Shown: positions 28,874-56,794 of the stretch, one piece after another
How positions within the stretch are numbered: the first letter of the stretch is position 1
How the letters are laid out: each line of letters begins with the position of its first letter
The notes under the pieces: model-generated
What the model was told of the DNA's origin: nothing
Databases searched by the model: none
What the model saw: only the letters and a program-made list of their open reading frames with translations
Made by a program: the position numbers and the translations under genes
NCBI GenBank assembly: GCA_039680175.1
Contig: JBDKTO010000016.1
Coordinates: 1-64,000 of the forward strand
Source: Veillonellales bacterium
GTDB taxonomy: Bacteria; Bacillota; Negativicutes; JAAYSF01
Direction of reading: 5' to 3'
Length of the DNA: 64,000 nt

Positions 28874-30181
28874 TTATTCAAAAACCGTCTGTTCGTCAAT
28901 TTCGGTTGACAGGGCTTTTAATGCTTTTGCTACTAAGTTATGTCTTATGACTTTTTCACCTTCCGCAGTGAGAGCCGGATTGCCCAGGGGATGAGGAATG
29001 GCGACGGTAGGCACAATGCGGTTGGCGCCAACTGTTTTGCTGATTGGCACAATGGTGCACATATGAACTACCGGCAGACCGGCTCGCTCAATTTCTTTTA
29101 CAATCGCTGCGCCGCAGCGAGTACAGGTCCCTCAGGTTGATGTCAGGATGACGGCATCCACACCATCATTCCTGAGCTCGGCTGCGATGGCCTTGCCAAA
29201 ACGGGAAGCATTAGCTACCGATGTGCCATTACCTACTGTGGCATAATAGAAATCATGAAGCTTGCCGATTATGCCTTGCTGTTCCATCTCTCGCAATACA
29301 TCAATCGGCAGCACCCGATCGGCATCCTGGTTGGCATATACCGGGTCATAGCCGCCATGAGCCGTCTGGAATGTTTCCGGGGTTAGGTCGGAAACGCCGG
29401 CAATCGAATATTTGCCGAATTTTGAGGCGGAGGATGACTCGATGCGGTCAGGATTTCCTTTAGGAACGATGCCGCCGGAAGTAACTAAGGCAATGGTTGC
29501 TTTGGTTATATCTTTAATCGCAGGATTTGGCGAAACACGATCAAAAGCCGGCATGGGCAGTTCAGTGACAAATTCCCCTCCGGTTAGTTTGTTTACCAGC
29601 ATGTCGACCGCCCGTTTGGCGCCGGTATCACTGGCGAAGAAGTTTTTCCGAATGCCGCGGGCAATATAGCCTTCTTTTTCCGGAGTACCAATTGATTGTT
29701 TGTCGGCAAGCTTTAAGGCGAGGGCTGCCATTTTTGGAACGGCTTTACGCATGCCAATGGCGGAGTTGGCTGTTTCGATAATATAAATCGACTTTTTATA
29801 CAGATCAGCTCCGGGATTTTCCGGATACATTCCGCTGACAGCCGGCAGGCCCAATTGTTGCTGCACCGCATCGGCAACAGCGCCGCAGGCGGTGCCATAA
29901 CGACCGGCATTAAATGCCGGCCCGGTAATGACCAGATCAGGCTGATATTCTTTAATGAAGCTTAGTACTTGACACAAAGCTGCATCTATATTTTCAGCGA
30001 AGAAACTATCCCCGCAAATCACCGTGCCGACGACTTCAGCCTGCCCATTGAAGGCTGCGTTGAGCGCCAGTCCGGGACCAACCGGGCCGTCTTTCTTCAT
30101 TGGGGCGACAGTTGCTTTTTCTTCGCCGCCTATCTGACCGAAGAATTGGTTCAGATAGTGAACGACTTTCAGTTTGGCCAC
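28874..30181 (-). CDS. grdB: Glycine reductase component B gamma subunit, selenoprotein
   Basis: This encodes 435 residues when the in-frame TGA (29132-29134) is read as selenocysteine at position 350. Before it the sequence is DAVILTST and after it GTCTRCGA, which is the GrdB active-site context (U-x-x-C-x-x-C). Without readthrough the product would be 349 residues and the essential C-terminus (VPISKTVGANRIVP) would be lost. GrdB binds glycine with the GrdE-derived subunits and passes it to GrdA selenium. A hairpin (CGCTGC-GGC-GCAGCG) lies 12 nt after the TGA, at SECIS distance. Confidence 0.95.
29099..29134 (-). promoter_or_regulatory. Selenocysteine UGA and candidate SECIS hairpin in grdB
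   Basis: The TGA codon is followed 12 nt later by a 6-bp hairpin with a GGC loop (CGCTGC/GCAGCG), within the coding sequence as bacterial SECIS elements are. The exact SelB-binding loop is not resolved by eye. Confidence 0.6.
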
Positions 30182-33800: not shown

Positions 33801-33846
33801 AAAAATAAAAAAACAGAAGCCTAAACACAAGGTGTTTGGCCTCTGT
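33801..33846 (-). terminator. Riboswitch-controlled terminator of the grd operon
   Basis: On the minus strand a ~15-bp stem (ACAGAGGCC-AAACAC with GTGTTTAGGCTTCTGT) is followed by TTTTTTTATTTTT, directly after the second glycine aptamer. Its 5' arm lies next to the aptamer closing sequence, as in glycine-activated riboswitches. Confidence 0.8.
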
Positions 33847-33849
33847 CTG

Positions 33850-34016
33850 TTAACCTGAGAGATTCCCGCATGCTGCACTGAGGAATGATGCGGATTACCC
33901 CTTTGGTGCCGCGCAAGGCGGACTCTCCAGAGTTCCGTCGGGATGCGGTCCTTTTGCCTGAGAGGTTCAGTCCAAAACTTGCTCCTTCGGCGCCTGAGAT
34001 TAGGTCTCTCCCGCAT
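33850..34016 (-). promoter_or_regulatory. Tandem glycine riboswitch
   Basis: On the minus strand, two consecutive aptamers are visible. The first has GGGAGAG, GCCGAAGGAGCAA and CTCTCAGGCAAAAGG. The second has GGAGAG, CCAAAGGGGTAA and TCTCTCAGG. This is the gcvT-type tandem glycine aptamer. With the terminator that follows it should switch the grd operon on when glycine is present, which suits a glycine-consuming pathway. In many bacteria the same element controls the glycine cleavage system. Confidence 0.92.
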
Positions 34017-34053
34017 CGGTCATTCGGACATGGTATTAAATTCCTTTTATTTC

Positions 34054-34196: not shown

Positions 34197-34226
34197 TTGA
34201 CAGGCTTTTATACCTGCTGATAAAAT
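34197..34226 (+). promoter_or_regulatory. Promoter of the purine operon
   Basis: A perfect -35 TTGACA (34197-34202) and -10 TAAAAT (34221-34226) are 18 bp apart, ending 20 nt before the guanine aptamer. Confidence 0.75.
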
Positions 34227-34246
34227 ATATACGTAAATGAATATAG

Positions 34247-34313
34247 CTCGTATAATTTTGAGGATATGGCTCGACAGTTTCTACCAGATGACCGTAAATT
34301 ATCTGACTACGAG
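34247..34313 (+). promoter_or_regulatory. Guanine riboswitch (purine aptamer)
   Basis: The full purine-aptamer pattern is present: P1 CTCGTA with TACGAG, TATAAT...GATATGG, GTTTCTACC, ACCGTAAAT and GACTAC. The specificity base in J3/1 is C (GACTAC), which indicates guanine or hypoxanthine rather than adenine. No terminator follows directly; the next element is a ykkC-type aptamer, so the two share one expression platform. Confidence 0.92.
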
Positions 34314-34440
34314 TGAAAGTGTGCCTAGGGTTCCGCATACCGGCGTATCCCGTTTTATCTGCTGCGTATGGCTGCGACCAAGGGGTACAGGTGTTCCCGA
34401 TAACGCTACACCGTTGGGATAAAAGCCCAGGCGGGGAAGT
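34314..34440 (+). promoter_or_regulatory. ykkC-type riboswitch, probably PRPP-sensing
   Basis: The ykkC consensus blocks are visible in order: CCTAGGGTTCCG, GCGACCAAGGG, ACACCG and GGGATAAAAGCCC. Subtype 2b (PRPP) is inferred from the purine operon context and from the known natural tandem of guanine and PRPP aptamers. Guanidine (subtype 1) or ppGpp (2a) sensing would be odd here. PRPP would favour expression and guanine would oppose it. Confidence 0.82.
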
Positions 34441-34489
34441 TTCGCTCGGAAAAATGCGATATTTCCCTGTCCGGGTTTACTTATTTTTT
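34426..34489 (+). terminator. Shared terminator of the tandem purine riboswitch
   Basis: CCCAGGCGGGGAA pairs, with G-U pairs, with TTTCCCTGTCCGGG and is followed by TTTACTTATTTTTT. Its 5' arm overlaps the last conserved block of the ykkC-type aptamer, which gives a direct switch. Confidence 0.75.
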
Positions 34490-34559
34490 GGAGGTGAAGG
34501 GAGAAAATAAACGGTGAGAAAAACACGGGGACTCGAGACTATTTGAAAGGGAGACAAGC

Positions 34560-35933
34560 ATGCTGGAAAAAATTTTTAATCTCAGTGCACGGAAAACGGA
34601 TGTAAATACCGAGTTTATGGCAGGTATTACGACTTTTATGACAATGGCCTATATTTTGTTTGTAAATCCAAGCGTACTTGGCGCCGCAGGTATGGACAAG
34701 AACGCCGTATTGCTGGCAACCGCAATTGGCGCCGGATTAGTGACGATTATGATGGGGCTGTTTGTTAATTATCCGATTGCGCTGGCTCCCGGAATGGGTC
34801 TGAATGCCTTTTATGCTTTCACCGTAGTTATCGGTATGGGGGTTTCCTGGCAGGTTGCTTTGGGTGCCGTATTTATTTCCGGCATAATTTTTATCTTGCT
34901 GACTATTACGCGGATACGCCAACTGCTGGTAGAAGGGATGCCTGCATCACTCAAGTATGCAATTACGGTAGGTATTGGTTTATTTATTACTATTATCGGG
35001 CTCAAGATTTCCGGCTTGATGAGTATTCGCTTATCACTCATTCCGCCTACGTTAGAGAAAATTGTTGCCGGTCATGGTAATGGCACTCCTTTATATTTTG
35101 AAACTATTATCGAAATGGGCAAGCTGGTGGATAAAGATGTTCTGCTGGCGGTGTTTGGCCTGTTGTTTATCGGTGTTTTAATGGCGCGTAAGATTAAGGG
35201 CTCTATGCTTATTGGTATTTTAGTCACCACTGTGATCGGTATTGTAATCGGCGTGGTAAAAGTTCCTGCCGGATTTACGCCGGTGGCTGTTCCCGATTTT
35301 AGTAAAAATGCCTTTTTGGCTCTGGATATTCCCGGTGCCATCAATATGGGACTGCTAACCATTATTTTTACCTTTACTTTTGTGGAACTGTTTGATACGA
35401 TGGGAACTCTTGTCGGGACGGCAACAAAAGCCGGCCTAATGGATGAAAAAACCGGAAAATTTCCCGGCATCGGCAAGGCAATGCTGGTCGATGCAACGGG
35501 TGTTAGTCTGGGTTCCCTTCTGGGTACCAGCACGATTACCTGTTTTGTGGAAAGCGCGGCCGGTGTTGGTGCCGGTGGGCGTACCGGGTTGGCAGCGGTA
35601 GTATGCGGGGTATTGTTTCTGTTATCCCTGTTTTTCACACCGTTGGTGGGACTGATTCCCGATGCGGCCACTGCACCGGCACTTATCATTGTGGGAGCGC
35701 TGATGATGGATGGCATCCGTCATATTGATTTCAGCGATTTTACCGAAGCGCTGCCGGCCTTTCTCACGATTACTTTAATGCCTTTTACATACAGTATTGC
35801 CAATGGCATTTCTGCCGGATTGGTTTTTTATCCGCTGCTTAAGTTAATTACCGGCCGCGGCCGTGAGGTTCATTGGATTGTATATGTGCTTGCATTATTA
35901 GTTCTTGCACGGTTTGTTTTTCTTGCGGAATAG
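34560..35933 (+). CDS. NCS2-family guanine/hypoxanthine permease (AzgA/PbuG type)
   Basis: This encodes 457 residues with about 12-14 hydrophobic segments and AAGGGAGA before the ATG. Family motifs include the N-terminal TEFMAGITTFMTMAYILFVNP, ALAPGMGLNAFY, FVELFDTMGTL and a GTSTITCFVESAAGVGAGGRTGL segment. It would import guanine or hypoxanthine by proton symport. It is the first gene behind the tandem guanine/PRPP riboswitch and precedes the de novo purine genes, so salvage uptake and synthesis are co-regulated. Confidence 0.92.
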   Translation: MLEKIFNLSARKTDVNTEFMAGITTFMTMAYILFVNPSVLGAAGMDKNAVLLATAIGAGLVTIMMGLFVNYPIALAPGMGLNAFYAFTVVIGMGVSWQVALGAVFISGIIFILLTITRIRQLLVEGMPASLKYAITVGIGLFITIIGLKISGLMSIRLSLIPPTLEKIVAGHGNGTPLYFETIIEMGKLVDKDVLLAVFGLLFIGVLMARKIKGSMLIGILVTTVIGIVIGVVKVPAGFTPVAVPDFSKNAFLALDIPGAINMGLLTIIFTFTFVELFDTMGTLVGTATKAGLMDEKTGKFPGIGKAMLVDATGVSLGSLLGTSTITCFVESAAGVGAGGRTGLAAVVCGVLFLLSLFFTPLVGLIPDAATAPALIIVGALMMDGIRHIDFSDFTEALPAFLTITLMPFTYSIANGISAGLVFYPLLKLITGRGREVHWIVYVLALLVLARFVFLAE

Positions 35934-36044: not shown

Positions 36045-36530
36045 ATGAAAGTAGCCATAATAATGGGGAGTGATTCCGATTGGCCGGTATTGGAGCCGGC
36101 AGTCAGGACGCTTCACGATTTTGATATTGCGACGGAGGTTCTGGTCGCTTCCGCCCATCGTACACCGGAAAAAGTGCATCAATTTGCTGCTACAGCCGGT
36201 GAACGGGGGGTACAGGTTATTATTGCGGCAGCCGGAGCGGCAGCCCATTTACCTGGTGTTGTCGCTAGTTATACGACGCTGCCGGTTATTGGGGTCCCTA
36301 TTAACAGTACCTCATTGAATGGGATGGATGCACTGCTGAGTATTGTACAGATGCCTTCCGGCATTCCCGTAGCTACGATGGCGGTCAATGGTGCTAAAAA
36401 TGCCGCGATTTTTGCCGCTCAGATTTTAGCGGTACAGAATGCGGCTCTGGCGGAAAAATTGCTGGCCCATCGTCAAACCATGGCGGCAGAAGTCGAACGT
36501 AAAGCAGCGAAAGTTGCTGAAAAGCTGTAA
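36045..36530 (+). CDS. purE: N5-carboxyaminoimidazole ribonucleotide mutase
   Basis: This encodes 161 residues. The N-terminal class I PurE signature MGSDSDWPV and the SAHRTPEKV motif with the catalytic His are present, and GAAAHLPGV follows. It moves the carboxyl group from N5-CAIR to CAIR. No purK is next to it; the ATP-dependent partner may be elsewhere, or CAIR may form directly from CO2. It is first of seven pur genes on this strand. Confidence 0.95.
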
Positions 36531-36589
36531 GATGTATTAACCAGTTTATAAAATTTGCAATATAAATAGAAATAGTGGAGGGTTTTGCA

Positions 36590-37300
36590 ATGGGGAAAAC
36601 GCCATTATATGAAGGCAAAGCAAAGCAGGTTTATGCAACTGACAATGACGACGAATTACTGGTTTACTTTAAGGATGACGCTACGGCGTTTAATGGTGAA
36701 AAAAAGGGTACGATTCAAAGCAAGGGAGTATTAAATAATAAAATTTCCACTTTCTTTTTCAATCTGTTAAGCAAAAATGGAATCCCGCATCATTTCATTC
36801 GCACGATCAGCGATCGGGAAATGCTTGTGAAGAAACTGGATATTGTCAAAGTAGAGGTTGTGGTTCGCAATATTGCTGCTGGCAGTCTGGCTAAACGGAT
36901 GGGCTGTGAGGAAGGGAAAAAGCTGCCTAGCGCTGTTTTGGAAATGTACTATAAGAACGATGAGCTTGGCGACCCAATGATTAATCAATATCATATTAAA
37001 GCCATGGGTCTGGCTACGGCTGAACAAGTAAGTAAAATGGAGGAATACGCTCTTAAAATTAATGAAGTTTTGACAAGCTATTTAAATACTAAAAAAATCG
37101 AGCTGGTTGATTTTAAATTGGAATTTGGTATTCATAAAGGAGAATTGCTTCTGGGGGATGAGATTTCTCCCGATACTTGCCGCTTCTGGGATAGTGAAAC
37201 CGGTGAAAAACTGGATAAGGACCGTTTCCGTCGGGATCTCGGCAATGTGGAGGAAGCCTATAAAGAAGTATTGCAGCGTTTAACGGGAGAAACTTTATGA
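36590..37300 (+). CDS. purC: SAICAR synthetase
   Basis: This encodes 236 residues from the ATG at 36590 with GGAGGG upstream; the longer ORF from 36575 would begin inside that site. Motifs include [10 protein letters not shown], the aspartate-binding [13 protein letters not shown] and DFKLEFG, and SPDTCRFWD. It joins CAIR and aspartate with ATP. The stop overlaps purF by 4 nt. The next enzyme, PurB, is not in the window. Confidence 0.95.
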
Positions 37301-38736
37301 GTATTGACTTGGCGGAAAGTGACAAACTCCATGAGGAGTGCGGCGTTTTCGGCATTTATTCCCGGGATGATGATGTGGCACTGAATACATATTGGGGACT
37401 CTACGCCCTGCAGCATCGTGGTCAGGAAAGCGCCGGTATCGCAGTAACCGATGGAGCCTGGATGGATATTCACCGGGGAATGGGACTGGTAAACGAGGTA
37501 TTTCGCCATCAGCTGCCGCATATGGAAAATCAGTATATTGCTATCGGACATGTACGTTATTCGACTACCGGTTCCAGTTTATTGGCCAATACGCAGCCGC
37601 TTATGGTTACTTTCTCCGGCGGTCACATTAGTATGGCTCATAATGGCAATCTTACAAATGCCCGGGAATTGCGGCAAAAATTAGAGGAGCAGGGCAGCGT
37701 TTTTCAGACTTCCATTGACAGCGAGGTAATTGTGAATCTGATTGCCCGTTCCCGTAAAGCAACTGTCGAAGAACGGATTCAGGAAAGTTTGTCAAAAATC
37801 CAGGGGGCTTACTGCCTGGCGATTATGACAGAAGCAAAATTGATTGGGGTGCGGGATCCACACGGATTTCGTCCTTTATGCATTGGTAAATTAAACGACG
37901 GCTGGGTCATTGCTTCGGAGTCCTGCGCCTTAGATACCGTCGGGGCTGATTTTGTCCGGGATGTCGAGCCGGGTGAAATGGTGGTTATTGATGAAAACGG
38001 ACTTCATTCCAGCTATTTTGGCGAGAGTGACCGTCGGTCACTGTGCATTTTTGAATATATTTACTTTGCCCGTCCCGATAGTGTCATTGACGGACAAAGC
38101 GTGTATCAGGCCCGGTTTGATATGGGAAGAGCTTTAGCCAGGGAGAGCGGGTTTAAAGCGGATTTAGTCATATCGGTTCCTGACTCGGGGACTACTGCAG
38201 CTCTCGGGTTCAGTTATGAGTCGGGAATTCCCTTTGCCGAAGGGCTAATAAAAAATCGTTATATCGGGCGTACTTTTATTCAGCCGGAACAGAAGAAGCG
38301 GGATTTAAGTGTCCGGATCAAGTTAAACGCTGTTCGTTCGGTAGTGGAGGGGAAATCCGTTGTTATGGTGGATGACTCCATTGTCCGGGGAACGACCAGC
38401 GGTAAAATTGTCCGTTTACTGAAAGAGGCCGGTGCGAAGGCGATTCATATGTGTGTAAGTTCTCCGCCAATTGGGTTTCCCTGTTACTATGGGATTGATA
38501 TTTCTGTACGCAAAGAACTGATTGCTGCCACTAAGCAAGTAGAAGAAATCAGGGAATATATTGATGCGGATTCTCTGTATTATCTTTCTTTGGAAGGATT
38601 GAGGGAAGCCGTGCCGAATATACCATCGGGACAAATGTGCTACGCTTGCTTTAATTGCGATTATCCGGCCAATAGGCCCTGTGAAGGCAATTGTGCCAGC
38701 AATAAATTTATCTTTGAGCAGCGCAGGAAACGGTAG
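37297..38736 (+). CDS. purF: Amidophosphoribosyltransferase
   Basis: This encodes 479 residues. A short propeptide precedes the catalytic Cys15 ([10 protein letters not shown]), as in the Bacillus-type enzyme that is self-processed. The glutaminase part has RYSTTGSS and AHNGNL, and the PRPP site has [13 protein letters not shown]. The C-terminal [10 protein letters not shown] and earlier cysteines suggest the 4Fe-4S form that is sensitive to oxygen. It catalyses the committed step from PRPP, which fits control by the PRPP riboswitch. Confidence 0.95.
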
Positions 38737-38766: not shown

Positions 38767-39837
38767 ATGAGCATGGAAAAAAATCAGAAAATCCCGTTAA
38801 CATATCGCGAAGCCGGGGTGGATATCGACGCCGGCAACCGGGCGGTGCAGTTGATGAAAAATGACGTCAAAGCTACTTACCGTCCGGAAGTGCTTGGCGA
38901 TATCGGCGGGTTTGGCGGCTTGTTTGCCCTTGATATTGCCAAATACCGTCAGCCGGTTCTGGTTTCCGGTACGGATGGAGTTGGCACCAAGCTTTGCCTG
39001 GCATTTATGCTGGATCGCCATGATACCATTGGACAGGACGCCGTAGCCATGTGTGTAAACGATATTTTAGTACAAGGGGCGGAGCCCTTGTTTTTCCTCG
39101 ATTATTTAGCAGTTGGGAAACTGGAGCCGGAAAAAGTCGCTGCCATTGTCAGCGGTGTCGCCGGTGCCTGTAAAGAATCCGGCTGCGCCCTCATTGGCGG
39201 CGAAACAGCGGAAATGGCCGGTTTTTATAAGACCGGTGAGTATGACATCGGCGGCTTTGCCGTCGGAGTAGTTGAAAAATCAAAAATAATTACCGGGGAG
39301 ACTATTCAGCCGGGAGATGTTTTGCTGGGACTGCCTTCCAGCGGCGTTCATTCTAACGGATATTCTCTTGTGCGAAAAATTTGTTTTGATTTGCAGCAGC
39401 AGTCGCCGGATGATTTTATGCCGGAACTGGGACGGACAATCGGCGAGGAATTGCTGGTGCCCACCAGACTGTATCCCAAGGTTTGTTTGCCGCTCTTCGA
39501 GAAATTTGAAGTTCGGGGGATGGTACATATTACCGGCGGCGGCTTTTATGACAATATACCCCGTATATTGCCTGAACATTGCAGGGCTGAGGTGGATACG
39601 TCCTCCTGGCCGATGCTGCCTGTATTTGGATTGCTTCAGGAATGGGGGCAAGTTCCCTGGCCGGAAATGTACCGGACGTTCAATATGGGAATCGGCATGA
39701 TTCTGGTACTGCCACCTTCTCAGGCAGAAGCTGTTCAGCAGGATTTGGCGGCCCGTGGTGAAAAATCATATGTGATCGGCAAAATAAACGCCGGAAAACA
39801 GGAAGTCATCCTGAAAGGTGGCGTCTTTGGTGGGTAA
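38767..39837 (+). CDS. purM: AIR synthetase
   Basis: This encodes 356 residues with GGAGG before the ATG at 38767. Motifs include the N-terminal [24 protein letters not shown], the ATP-binding [18 protein letters not shown] and [11 protein letters not shown]. It closes the imidazole ring of FGAM. Its 3' end overlaps the start of purN, so the two are translationally coupled. purL, purS and purQ, needed for the preceding step, are not in this operon. Confidence 0.95.
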
Positions 39838-40456
39838 AACGGTATTAGGCGTATTGGCTTCCGGGCGGGGCAGTAATCTGCAGGCTATTATGGATGCCAT
39901 TTCTGCCGGCAGTATTGCAGCCGAGATTGGTGTGGTCATCAGCGACAATCCGAAGGCCAATGTACTCAAACGCGTAGCGGGTACGGGTATACCGGCCATT
40001 CCAATTGATCGTAAGCGTTTTGCCACCAGAGCGGAATTTGAAGGGGAAATTGCCAGACAGCTTAATTTGCATCATGTCGAATTGGTGGTATTAGCTGGAT
40101 TTATGCGCATTTTAAGTCCGGATTTTATTAGCTTATTTTCCGGCTATATCATGAATATTCACCCGGCGCTGTTACCCTCCTTTCCCGGGTTAAATGCCCA
40201 GGAACAGGCGGTTAATTATGGCGTAAAAGTTTCCGGGTGTACCATTCATTTTGTTGACGAAGGAATGGATACCGGCCCCATTATATTGCAAGAGGCAGTT
40301 CCCGTATTGGATGGCGACACCCCCGAAACATTAGCGGACCGGATTCTTCAGGTAGAACATAAGCTTTATCCTAAGGCTGTTGCCTTATATTGCGAAGGAC
40401 GGCTGCGGGTTGAAGGACGTAAAGTGAGAATTGTGGAAAAGGGGATGCGTTTATGA
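39830..40456 (+). CDS. purN: GAR transformylase
   Basis: This encodes 208 residues from the GTG at 39830, chosen because AAAGGTGG lies about 10 nt upstream; a GTG at 39818 is also possible. The fold shows [13 protein letters not shown], the catalytic Asn-His motif [11 protein letters not shown] and the conserved [19 protein letters not shown]. It uses 10-formyl-THF to formylate glycinamide ribonucleotide. It overlaps purM by 8 nt and purH by 4 nt. Confidence 0.94.
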
Positions 40457-41994
40457 ATATTTCACGTGCATTAATTAGTGTTTCCGATAAAACAGGAATT
40501 GTTGATTTTGCCCGTAAGCTTAATAGCTATGGCGTAGAGATTATTTCCACCGGCGGTACGATGAATGCGCTGCGTAAAGCAGGCATTCCGGTTACGTATG
40601 TGAGCGATGTAACCGGCTTTCCTGAAATCATGGATGGACGGGTAAAGACCTTGAATCCTTATATTCATGGCGGTATTTTGGCCATTCGCGACAACCCCGA
40701 CCATGTGAAAGCCATGAAACAGCATAACATTCGCGGGATTGATCTGGTGGTTGTAAATTTATATCCCTTTCGGCAAACTGTGGCCAAGCCGGATGTTACC
40801 TTAGAAGAGGCTATTGAAAATATTGATATCGGCGGGCCGTCCATGATTCGTGCTGCCGCTAAAAATTATCGTTATGTTACGGTAGTGGTGAATCCGGAAC
40901 ACTATGATTCGGTGCTGCAGCAAATTGGCGACAAAAACGGTATTTCGGAAGAAACCCGCATGCAGCTGGCCCATGAAGCTTTCGAACATACGGCTGAGTA
41001 CGATGCATATATTGCTCAGTATCTAAGTAAACAACTGGGAGAAGGGAAATTCCCTCCTAACCTCCACATGGTCTGGGAACGGGTGCAGGCTTTGCGTTAT
41101 GGCGAGAATCCACACCAGCAGGCGGCTTTTTATCGGGAAAAATATTATACCGGCGCTGGGATTGCCAATGCCCGTCAACTCCATGGCAAGGAATTATCCT
41201 TTAACAATATTGTGGATGTAGAAGCAGCTTATAAGCTTGTTGCCGAATTTGACAAGCCGGCGGCAGCCATTATCAAACATACCAATCCCTGCGGTACCGG
41301 CATTGGCGATAATCTGGCAGCTGCCTACCAAAAGGCCTATCAGGCTGATCCGCTGTCGGCTTACGGCGGTATTGTCGCCCTGAACCGGGAAGTGGATCAG
41401 GCTACTGCTGAAGAAATAAAGACTATCTTCGTTGAAGCGGTGATCGCTCCGGCGTACAGCCAGCAAGCCCTTGATGTTCTCACGCAAAAAAAGAATGTCC
41501 GCATATTGTTGGCTGAAATGCCGGATCATTCAGCGGCGCAGCTGGACTGTAAAAAAGTTTCCGGCGGGCTGTTGATTCAGGAAACCGACAGTAAGGACGC
41601 TCCGCGGGCGGCTATGAAAGTGGTTACTGACCGTCAGCCTACGGCGGCAGAGTGGGAACAGCTGCTTTTTGCCTGGAAGGTTGTAAAACATGTCAAATCC
41701 AATGCAATTGTGGTCGCCGGGAATAATCAGACATTTGGCGTTGGCGCCGGTCAGATGAACCGTGTCGGATCTGCCGATATTGCCCTGACTCAGGCAGGCG
41801 AAAAAGCTCAGGGAGCGGTTTTGTCATCCGATGCTTTCTTCCCTTTCCGTGATACGATAGATGCTGCTGCTAAAGCCGGTATTAAAGCAATTATCCAACC
41901 CGGCGGGTCAATAAGAGATGAAGAATCGATTCAGGCAGCTAATGAACATGGTATTGCCATGGTATTTACCGGAATGCGGCATTTCAAACATTAA
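40453..41994 (+). CDS. purH: AICAR transformylase / IMP cyclohydrolase
   Basis: This encodes 513 residues in the bifunctional arrangement. The N-terminal IMP cyclohydrolase (MGS-like; ISVSDKTGIVDFA, STGGTMNALR, MDGRVKTLNP) is followed by AICAR formyltransferase with RYGENPHQQAAFY, FNNIVD and the catalytic IKHTNPCG. It makes IMP from AICAR in two steps. It is separated from purD by 36 nt. Confidence 0.96.
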   Translation: MNISRALISVSDKTGIVDFARKLNSYGVEIISTGGTMNALRKAGIPVTYVSDVTGFPEIMDGRVKTLNPYIHGGILAIRDNPDHVKAMKQHNIRGIDLVVVNLYPFRQTVAKPDVTLEEAIENIDIGGPSMIRAAAKNYRYVTVVVNPEHYDSVLQQIGDKNGISEETRMQLAHEAFEHTAEYDAYIAQYLSKQLGEGKFPPNLHMVWERVQALRYGENPHQQAAFYREKYYTGAGIANARQLHGKELSFNNIVDVEAAYKLVAEFDKPAAAIIKHTNPCGTGIGDNLAAAYQKAYQADPLSAYGGIVALNREVDQATAEEIKTIFVEAVIAPAYSQQALDVLTQKKNVRILLAEMPDHSAAQLDCKKVSGGLLIQETDSKDAPRAAMKVVTDRQPTAAEWEQLLFAWKVVKHVKSNAIVVAGNNQTFGVGAGQMNRVGSADIALTQAGEKAQGAVLSSDAFFPFRDTIDAAAKAGIKAIIQPGGSIRDEESIQAANEHGIAMVFTGMRHFKH

Positions 41995-42030: not shown

Positions 42031-43296
42031 GTGCGAATTTTAGTTATTGGCGGCGGCGGACGTGAACATACACTGGTTTGGAAACTGGCGGACAGCCCAC
42101 GGGTGGAAAAAATATATTGTGTGCCGGGAAATCCGGGAATCGGTCAGATTGCCGAATGCGTGAATCTTGATATCGGTGATAATGACGCCCTTGTCCGGTT
42201 TGCGCAGAACGAGCGGATAGATCTTACTGTTGTGGGTCCGGAGCTCCCCCTTGCTAATGGTATAGTGGATGTATTTGCGGCTCATAACCTGCGAATTTTC
42301 GGACCCGACCGGCAGGCAGCCCGGATTGAGGGATCCAAGTCTTTTGCCAAAGAACTGATGGAAAAATATCAGATTCCTACTGCCGGATTTCGGGTATTTA
42401 CCGTTGCCGAAGAAGCAAAAAAGTATGTCAGGCAGCATGGTGCGCCGGTAGTGGTCAAAGCCGATGGGCTGGCGGCCGGTAAAGGCGTGGTAGTTGCTAT
42501 GACGCTGGCAGAAGCGCTGGCAGCTGTGGATATGATCATGTGCGATCACGCCTTTGGTGCCGCCGGGAGCCAGGTGGTTATTGAAGATTTTTTAACCGGT
42601 GAGGAAGCATCTTTGCTGGCATTTACCGATGGAACAACGATTGTGCCGATGATAGCGGCCCAGGATCACAAACGAATTTTTAATGGCGATCAGGGTCCCA
42701 ATACCGGCGGAATGGGAGCGTATGCTCCGGCTCCGGTAGTTACTGCGGAAATTCGTGAGCAGGTTGTACGGGATATTTTACAGCCTGCCATTGACGCGAT
42801 GCGGCAGGAAGGCTGTCCTTATTGCGGTTGTTTATATGCCGGCTTGATTATTACCGATGAGGGCCCGAAGGTGATTGAGTTTAATGCCCGCTTTGGTGAT
42901 CCGGAGACGCAGGTGGTGCTGCCGCTGCTGGCGACTGATTTGACAGTCATTATGGAAGCTTGCATTGATGGTCAGCTTGCCAATGTGGATATTGAGTGGC
43001 GTCAGGAAACAGCCGTGTGCGTTGTTCTTGCTTCAAAAGGCTATCCGGCATCTTCCCATAAGGGAGATGTGATTGATGGTATTGATAGCGCTGAAAAGCA
43101 GCAGGCTTATGTATTTCATGCCGGGACGGCGGTGCGGCATGATCAGGTAATAACCAACGGCGGGCGGGTATTGGGTGTTACCGCTACTGCAGCCGATATT
43201 CGCGGCGCCGTAGAAAAGGCATATGCCGCGGTTAAGGAAATAAAGTTTGAAGGTATGCAGTACCGTACCGATATTGCCTATCGCGCTATGAAATAA
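42031..43296 (+). CDS. purD: Glycinamide ribonucleotide synthetase
   Basis: This encodes 421 residues from a GTG start behind AAAGGGG. ATP-grasp motifs are present: VIGGGGREHTLVWKL at the N-terminus, KADGLAAGKGVVVA, GGMGAYAPAP and EFNARFGDPE near the metal site. It attaches glycine to phosphoribosylamine. It is the last gene of the purine operon and is followed by a strong terminator. Confidence 0.96.
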   Translation: MRILVIGGGGREHTLVWKLADSPRVEKIYCVPGNPGIGQIAECVNLDIGDNDALVRFAQNERIDLTVVGPELPLANGIVDVFAAHNLRIFGPDRQAARIEGSKSFAKELMEKYQIPTAGFRVFTVAEEAKKYVRQHGAPVVVKADGLAAGKGVVVAMTLAEALAAVDMIMCDHAFGAAGSQVVIEDFLTGEEASLLAFTDGTTIVPMIAAQDHKRIFNGDQGPNTGGMGAYAPAPVVTAEIREQVVRDILQPAIDAMRQEGCPYCGCLYAGLIITDEGPKVIEFNARFGDPETQVVLPLLATDLTVIMEACIDGQLANVDIEWRQETAVCVVLASKGYPASSHKGDVIDGIDSAEKQQAYVFHAGTAVRHDQVITNGGRVLGVTATAADIRGAVEKAYAAVKEIKFEGMQYRTDIAYRAMK

Positions 43297-56649: not shown

Positions 56650-56772
56650 GCATCATCAGGCTGGTATTCTTCATCTGCCAGGATATTCTCCTGTAGGAAT
56701 TGGCACCGTTTCGCCGAAACGAATGGTTGCCGCGGCGTCATCGGGCCAGTCCCTCAGCCAACTCTTGATGAA
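56650..56772 (-). promoter_or_regulatory. SAM-I (S-box) riboswitch
   Basis: On the minus strand the S-box consensus appears: TCATCAAGAGTTGGCTGAGGGACTGGCCC, GATGACGCC, GGCAACC, and farther 3' GGTGCCAATTCC with CCAGATGA-like closing. High SAM favours the terminator and shuts off metNI-aminotransferase-metQ. Confidence 0.92.
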
Positions 56773-56794
56773 ATATATTCAGTTGATATCAGAA

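Follow-up and report, generated by a model that had tools for sequence, protein, structure and literature searches.

The window, a 64,000-nucleotide stretch of contig JBDKTO010000016.1 from a Veillonellales bacterium, carries a purine operon on its forward strand with the gene order permease-purE-C-F-M-N-H-D. Matches in NCBIfam, Pfam and PDB identified a purine permease of the AzgA/PbuG branch (Xan_ur_permease; 34560-35933; Pfam 4.2e-42, plant AZG1 2.8e-66), purE (36045-36530; TIGR01162), purC (36575-37300; TIGR00081), purF (37297-38736; TIGR01134), purM (38767-39837; TIGR00878), purN (39818-40456; TIGR00639), purH (40453-41994; NF002049) and purD (42031-43296; TIGR00877). A permease followed by seven pur genes had been read in an earlier note on this DNA, and the matches agree. 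The permease had also been called a guanine/hypoxanthine permease; a purine permease of this branch was confirmed, whereas family membership by itself leaves guanine/hypoxanthine versus adenine undecided as its substrate.

A likely promoter of good sigma-70-like form lies just 5' of the guanine aptamer on the same strand (34197-34226; TTGACA-18-TAAAAT with TG ahead of the second hexamer), recognised purely by its match to 11 of 12 consensus positions. One strong intrinsic terminator was found by folding at 34423-34489 on the forward strand, with arms at 34423-34445 and 34456-34478 and a T-run at 34481-34489 (UUAUUUUUU). The fold of 34416-34495 had an energy of -33.3 kcal/mol (z -4.07), and none of 200 shuffled sequences was as stable. 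The automatic terminator scan reported no terminator at the tandem locus, since it allows loops of at most 8 and this loop is 10. From the promoter through the T-run, the full regulatory unit spans approximately 34197-34489; the coordinates 34247-34489 and the single terminator proposed earlier were accurate.

The purine operon stands back to back with a glycine/sarcosine reductase cluster (grdX, trxB, trxA, grdE/grdG-like), which is preceded by two tandem glycine aptamers on the reverse strand (33835-34023; RF00504, 65.1 and 45.7 bits). A SECIS_4 selenocysteine insertion element on the reverse strand (29094-29131, 48.3 bits) is consistent with a selenoprotein in this cluster. A SAM riboswitch (56668-56774, reverse strand, 85.1 bits) was also observed ahead of an ABC-transporter ATPase resembling MetN.

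The guanine aptamer occupies 34228-34315 on the forward strand. Its RF00167 match (34228-34329) scored 86.1 bits, where the gathering score is 37, and the specificity base in GACUACGAG is the guanine-specifying C, as had been noted from the letters. It was the sole purine riboswitch detected in the genome. The ykkC-type aptamer that follows reads GUGAAAGUGUGCCUAGGGUUCCG...CACCGUUGGGAUAAAAGCCCAGGCGGGGAAGUUUCGCUCG and is continuous with the guanine aptamer. The order of the two had been described correctly, but they overlap at 34310-34314 rather than abut with no gap.

To the second aptamer (34312-34448, forward strand) we applied a covariance model of 30 other tandem PRPP aptamers. The window scored 98.4 bits (E 8e-21) and the family loci L002 and L004 scored 102-104 bits, all three being excluded from the model, which did include L022, a near-copy of L004. 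In this sequence, the ykkC core is flanked by conserved 5' and 3' extensions that form a 9-bp P0. A match to RF00442 (guanidine-I) at 34314-34435 reached 43 of the 63 bits required, as expected for ykkC subtype 2 and not for guanidine-I. Position 49, a marker against guanidine, is a pyrimidine in subtypes 2a and 2b and A in guanidine-I (PMC6031431); in the window it is G (34383), neither the pyrimidine of subtypes 2a and 2b nor the A of guanidine-I, and guanidine-I identity was rejected on this base and the score.

The published base separating PRPP from ppGpp aptamers is G96 (PMC6031431). The numbering used here is inferred, having been transferred by fitting the published C75-A76-C77 and G95-G96-G97 to tandems L091 and L092. 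On this numbering, G96 falls at 34430 on the forward strand, and G was present in 91 of 91 collected sequences where the position was readable. The same genome has two ppGpp-type (candidate subtype 2a) RNAs, L098 and L099, which share the scaffold and the 5' conserved block with the window. They differ in reading UGCGG where the window has AGGCGG, and so lack G96; they scored 62.8 and 61.5 bits with the PRPP model and are without a guanine aptamer. L098 precedes a glutamate-synthase-like gene and L099 leuA (names read from translation only), unlike the purine operon of the window; both contexts have been published for ppGpp RNAs. By the published discriminator, the second aptamer is thus assigned to the PRPP type (ykkC subtype 2b). 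The Rfam search suggested in the earlier note gave RF00167 above gathering and RF00442 below threshold, in line with ykkC subtype 2. A guanidine or ppGpp subtype, which that note had named as speaking against its reading, was looked for at the sequence level and not found.

We then compared the pairings of the two aptamers. Guanine P1 pairs 34246-34252 (GCUCGUA) with 34308-34314 (UACGAGU), as placed by the RF00167 structure and the fold. PRPP P0 pairs 34310-34318 (CGAGUGAAA) with 34440-34448 (UUUCGCUCG) in nine pairs, in the fold of 34228-34450 and in RNAalifold analysis, which detected P0 in 30 relatives. All four strands lie on the forward strand. Nucleotides 34310-34314 are common to the 3' strand of P1 and the 5' strand of P0, and the terminator 5' arm (34423-34445) takes in the opening six nucleotides of the P0 3' strand (34440-34445), in line with the overlap between the last conserved block and the terminator arm noted earlier. 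In the minimum-energy fold of 34228-34450, P0 was formed and guanine P1 was melted; with the fold extended to 34500, guanine P1 and the terminator appeared. Pairing probabilities for the window were 0.01 for P1 and 0.99 for P0 in the short transcript, and 0.97 for P1, 0.00 for P0 and 1.0 for the terminator in the long transcript. In these modelled structures, guanine P1, P0 and the terminator exclude one another through the two strands that they share.

Pattern scans of 47 stretches of named genome records and of phylum and family genomes yielded 88 further tandems; the phylum part of the sample comprised tandems from 42 of 398 genomes, plus two genomes of the same family. Lacking a guanine aptamer, six pattern matches (L009, L017, L023, L044, L054 and L096) were discarded. 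One of these, L023, carries a pair of PRPP-type aptamers separated by about 1 kb (L023:1836-1956 and L023:2825-2946), the latter likewise without a guanine aptamer. The three strands were readable in 85 of the 89 tandems, giving 61 distinct strand sets; the script anchored the P1 5' strand of L007 wrongly. Some genomes duplicate named records (L004 and L022, for example, look alike), and statistics were therefore calculated on unique strand sets.

In all 61 distinct sets, the shared strand could pair with both its guanine P1 and its PRPP P0 partner, with a median overlap of 5 nt between P1 and P0. Native P0 helices had a mean energy of -8.09 kcal/mol compared with -6.92 kcal/mol after permutation of partners, and 0 of 20,000 permutations was as low, relatedness being incompletely corrected in this test. 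When each distinct shared strand was counted once, the values were -7.73 (native) and -6.10 kcal/mol (permuted). Partner strands also changed together. U replaced A or G at index 5 of the shared strand with A in both partners in four cases, and a shared-strand CGUG was matched by CACG in the P1 5' strand and by CACACG or GCACG in the P0 3' strand. Likewise, UACGAGAGAAA of the L073 type is accompanied by UUUCUUCUCGUA, and GAGUAAAA of L045 by UUUUGCUC. In 84 of 85 tandems, a terminator was predicted that takes up the P0 3' region. Thermodynamic folding of the relatives gave a clean swap from P0 to P1 in only 23 of 85; therefore, ligand stabilisation or co-transcriptional kinetics must contribute. 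These sequence comparisons support, across lineages, a strand-competition model published for one sequence only. With one strand kept complementary to both stems in distinct tandems, that one-sequence model becomes a specific, testable rule.

A tandem without shared-strand competition, in which the aptamers hinder each other sterically or each affect the terminator independently, appears unlikely. Sherlock et al. kept steric competition open in 2018 (PMC5912903), and a 2022 review described the structural changes, and with them the structural basis of aptamer competition, as not yet established (PMC9481103). However, across the 61 distinct sets the shared strand has retained both of its pairings, and its partners change along with it. 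The shared strand is, moreover, merely 9-13 nt long, so that overlap of P1 and P0 is unavoidable.

The locus very probably carries a guanine–PRPP tandem riboswitch that controls transcription of an operon for purine uptake and IMP synthesis. In the strand-competition model, 34310-34314 would have two possible partners: an upstream one in guanine P1, which guanine stabilises, and a downstream one, 34440-34448, in P0, which PRPP stabilises. A formed P0 would tie up the terminator 5' arm and RNA polymerase would read on; with the shared strand held in P1, the 3' strand of P0 would be left free and would fold into the terminator. Guanine would thus favour termination, and PRPP would favour read-through by closing P0. 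Since the shared strand is contested, PRPP would compete with guanine and could override it. We infer ligand binding, the direction of the response and the gate logic at this locus from the homologues of Bacillus megaterium and Thermoanaerobacter mathranii. The tested homologue works as an IMPLY gate: PRPP takes precedence over guanine, and the genes are also expressed with neither ligand (PMC5912903). Such a gate is off only when guanine is present and PRPP absent (PMC5912903, PMC9481103). The earlier wording that guanine blocks the effect of PRPP inverts this published truth table.

The guanine–PRPP tandem class was described by Sherlock et al. in 2018 (PMC5912903), and 192 examples had been counted by 2022 (PMC9481103); its function has been published (PMC5912903, PMC6031431, PMC9481103). 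Direct adjacency and a single terminator overlapping the PRPP aptamer were both found here, as the assignment to this class in the earlier note implied. As in the B. megaterium codA tandem (PMC5912903), the guanine aptamer lies immediately 5' of the PRPP aptamer, one terminator overlaps the latter and purine-related genes follow. Unlike that tandem, the window has a permease and seven pur genes instead of codA, a PRPP pocket with G49 and A104, and a very strong P0. The T. mathranii tandem (6CK5/6CK4, PMC6031431) similarly has G96 and mutually exclusive P0 and guanine P1; its exclusivity was predicted by folding one sequence, compared with 61 distinct strand sets here, and its pocket bases 49 and 104 differ from those of the window. 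The window element is an ordinary member of the known class with one unusual pocket base, and what the present analysis adds is this base and the comparative support for shared-strand competition.

Among the 89 tandems, position 49 was U in 52, C in 36 and G in one, the window (34383, forward strand); the other 88 thus all have a pyrimidine. Position 104 is A in the window (34438, forward strand), a base shared with L099, with Sporomusa and with some further relatives; most tandems have G. G49 and A104 could lower the affinity of the window aptamer for PRPP, because in the crystal structure C49 contacts metal M1, held at the PRPP 5-phosphate, and G104 contacts the PRPP ribose (PMC6031431). A search for purine-49 variants in 398 genomes of the phylum returned one other match, L100:1471-1587 on the reverse strand, a PRPP-like ykkC RNA with G at 49 and without a guanine aptamer; the same search of viral contigs found none. 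The gene context of L100 is unusual, with an M20-type amidohydrolase (hydrolase) gene downstream. Since L100 keeps PRPP-like features with G49, the G49 of the window is probably a tolerated deviation at a position that serves as a sorting marker and not, like G96, as the ligand discriminator. The G at 34383 may also be an assembly error.

Loss or strong reduction of PRPP sensing through G49 and A104 would leave mainly a guanine OFF switch with P0 as a built-in antiterminator. G49 is unique among the tandems, A104 replaces a base that touches PRPP, and the window P0, at -12.1 kcal/mol, ranks second in strength among 56, so that antitermination with little ligand is conceivable. We nevertheless consider this improbable: the other contact bases that could be placed are kept (A5, G6, G48, C75, C77, C78, G96 and G105), A104 occurs in L099 and is frequent among Sporomusa relatives whose aptamers are otherwise intact, and G49 recurs in L100, an unrelated RNA. 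That the G49/A104 pocket has either switched its ligand preference or lost PRPP sensing within the same strand-exchange frame seems quite improbable; if it has, the tandem would compute another function, such as that of a plain guanine OFF switch, or may answer another phosphoribosyl compound. A ppGpp (subtype 2a) sensor is scarcely credible, even though subtypes 2a and 2b are little more than one base apart and a single change interconverts them (PMC6031431), given G96 at 34430, the scores about 36 bits lower of the ppGpp-type RNAs of the same genome, which lack G96, and downstream genes that are pur rather than leuA or glutamate synthase.

We examined the genes following tandems that had at least 600 bases downstream (n=87). 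The first gene was a permease in 56, purE in 11 and purD in 10; for the other ten it was a phosphorylase-family gene in five, one for a Bmp/PnrA-type binding protein in three, and in one each an amidohydrolase resembling adenine deaminase and a purL-like gene. One representative each of the phosphorylase-family, Bmp/PnrA-type and amidohydrolase classes was checked in Pfam. The arrangement of permease and pur genes under one gate, pointed out from the letters, was thus confirmed at this locus; it is not special to it. In this sample, whose selection favours sequences near the search pattern, salvage and uptake genes are common under the guanine–PRPP gate, and the permease-first arrangement means that the gate commonly spans purine uptake as well as synthesis. 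The main text of the 2018 paper leaves permeases unmentioned and presents synthesis up to IMP as the regulon (PMC5912903); a literature search for PRPP riboswitches with permeases found no paper in the collection searched. Salvage or uptake genes (amidohydrolase, Bmp/PnrA-type binding protein, phosphorylase) follow the tandem at L065, L064, L066, L082, L011, L046 and L058-L060, and some genomes carried two tandems.
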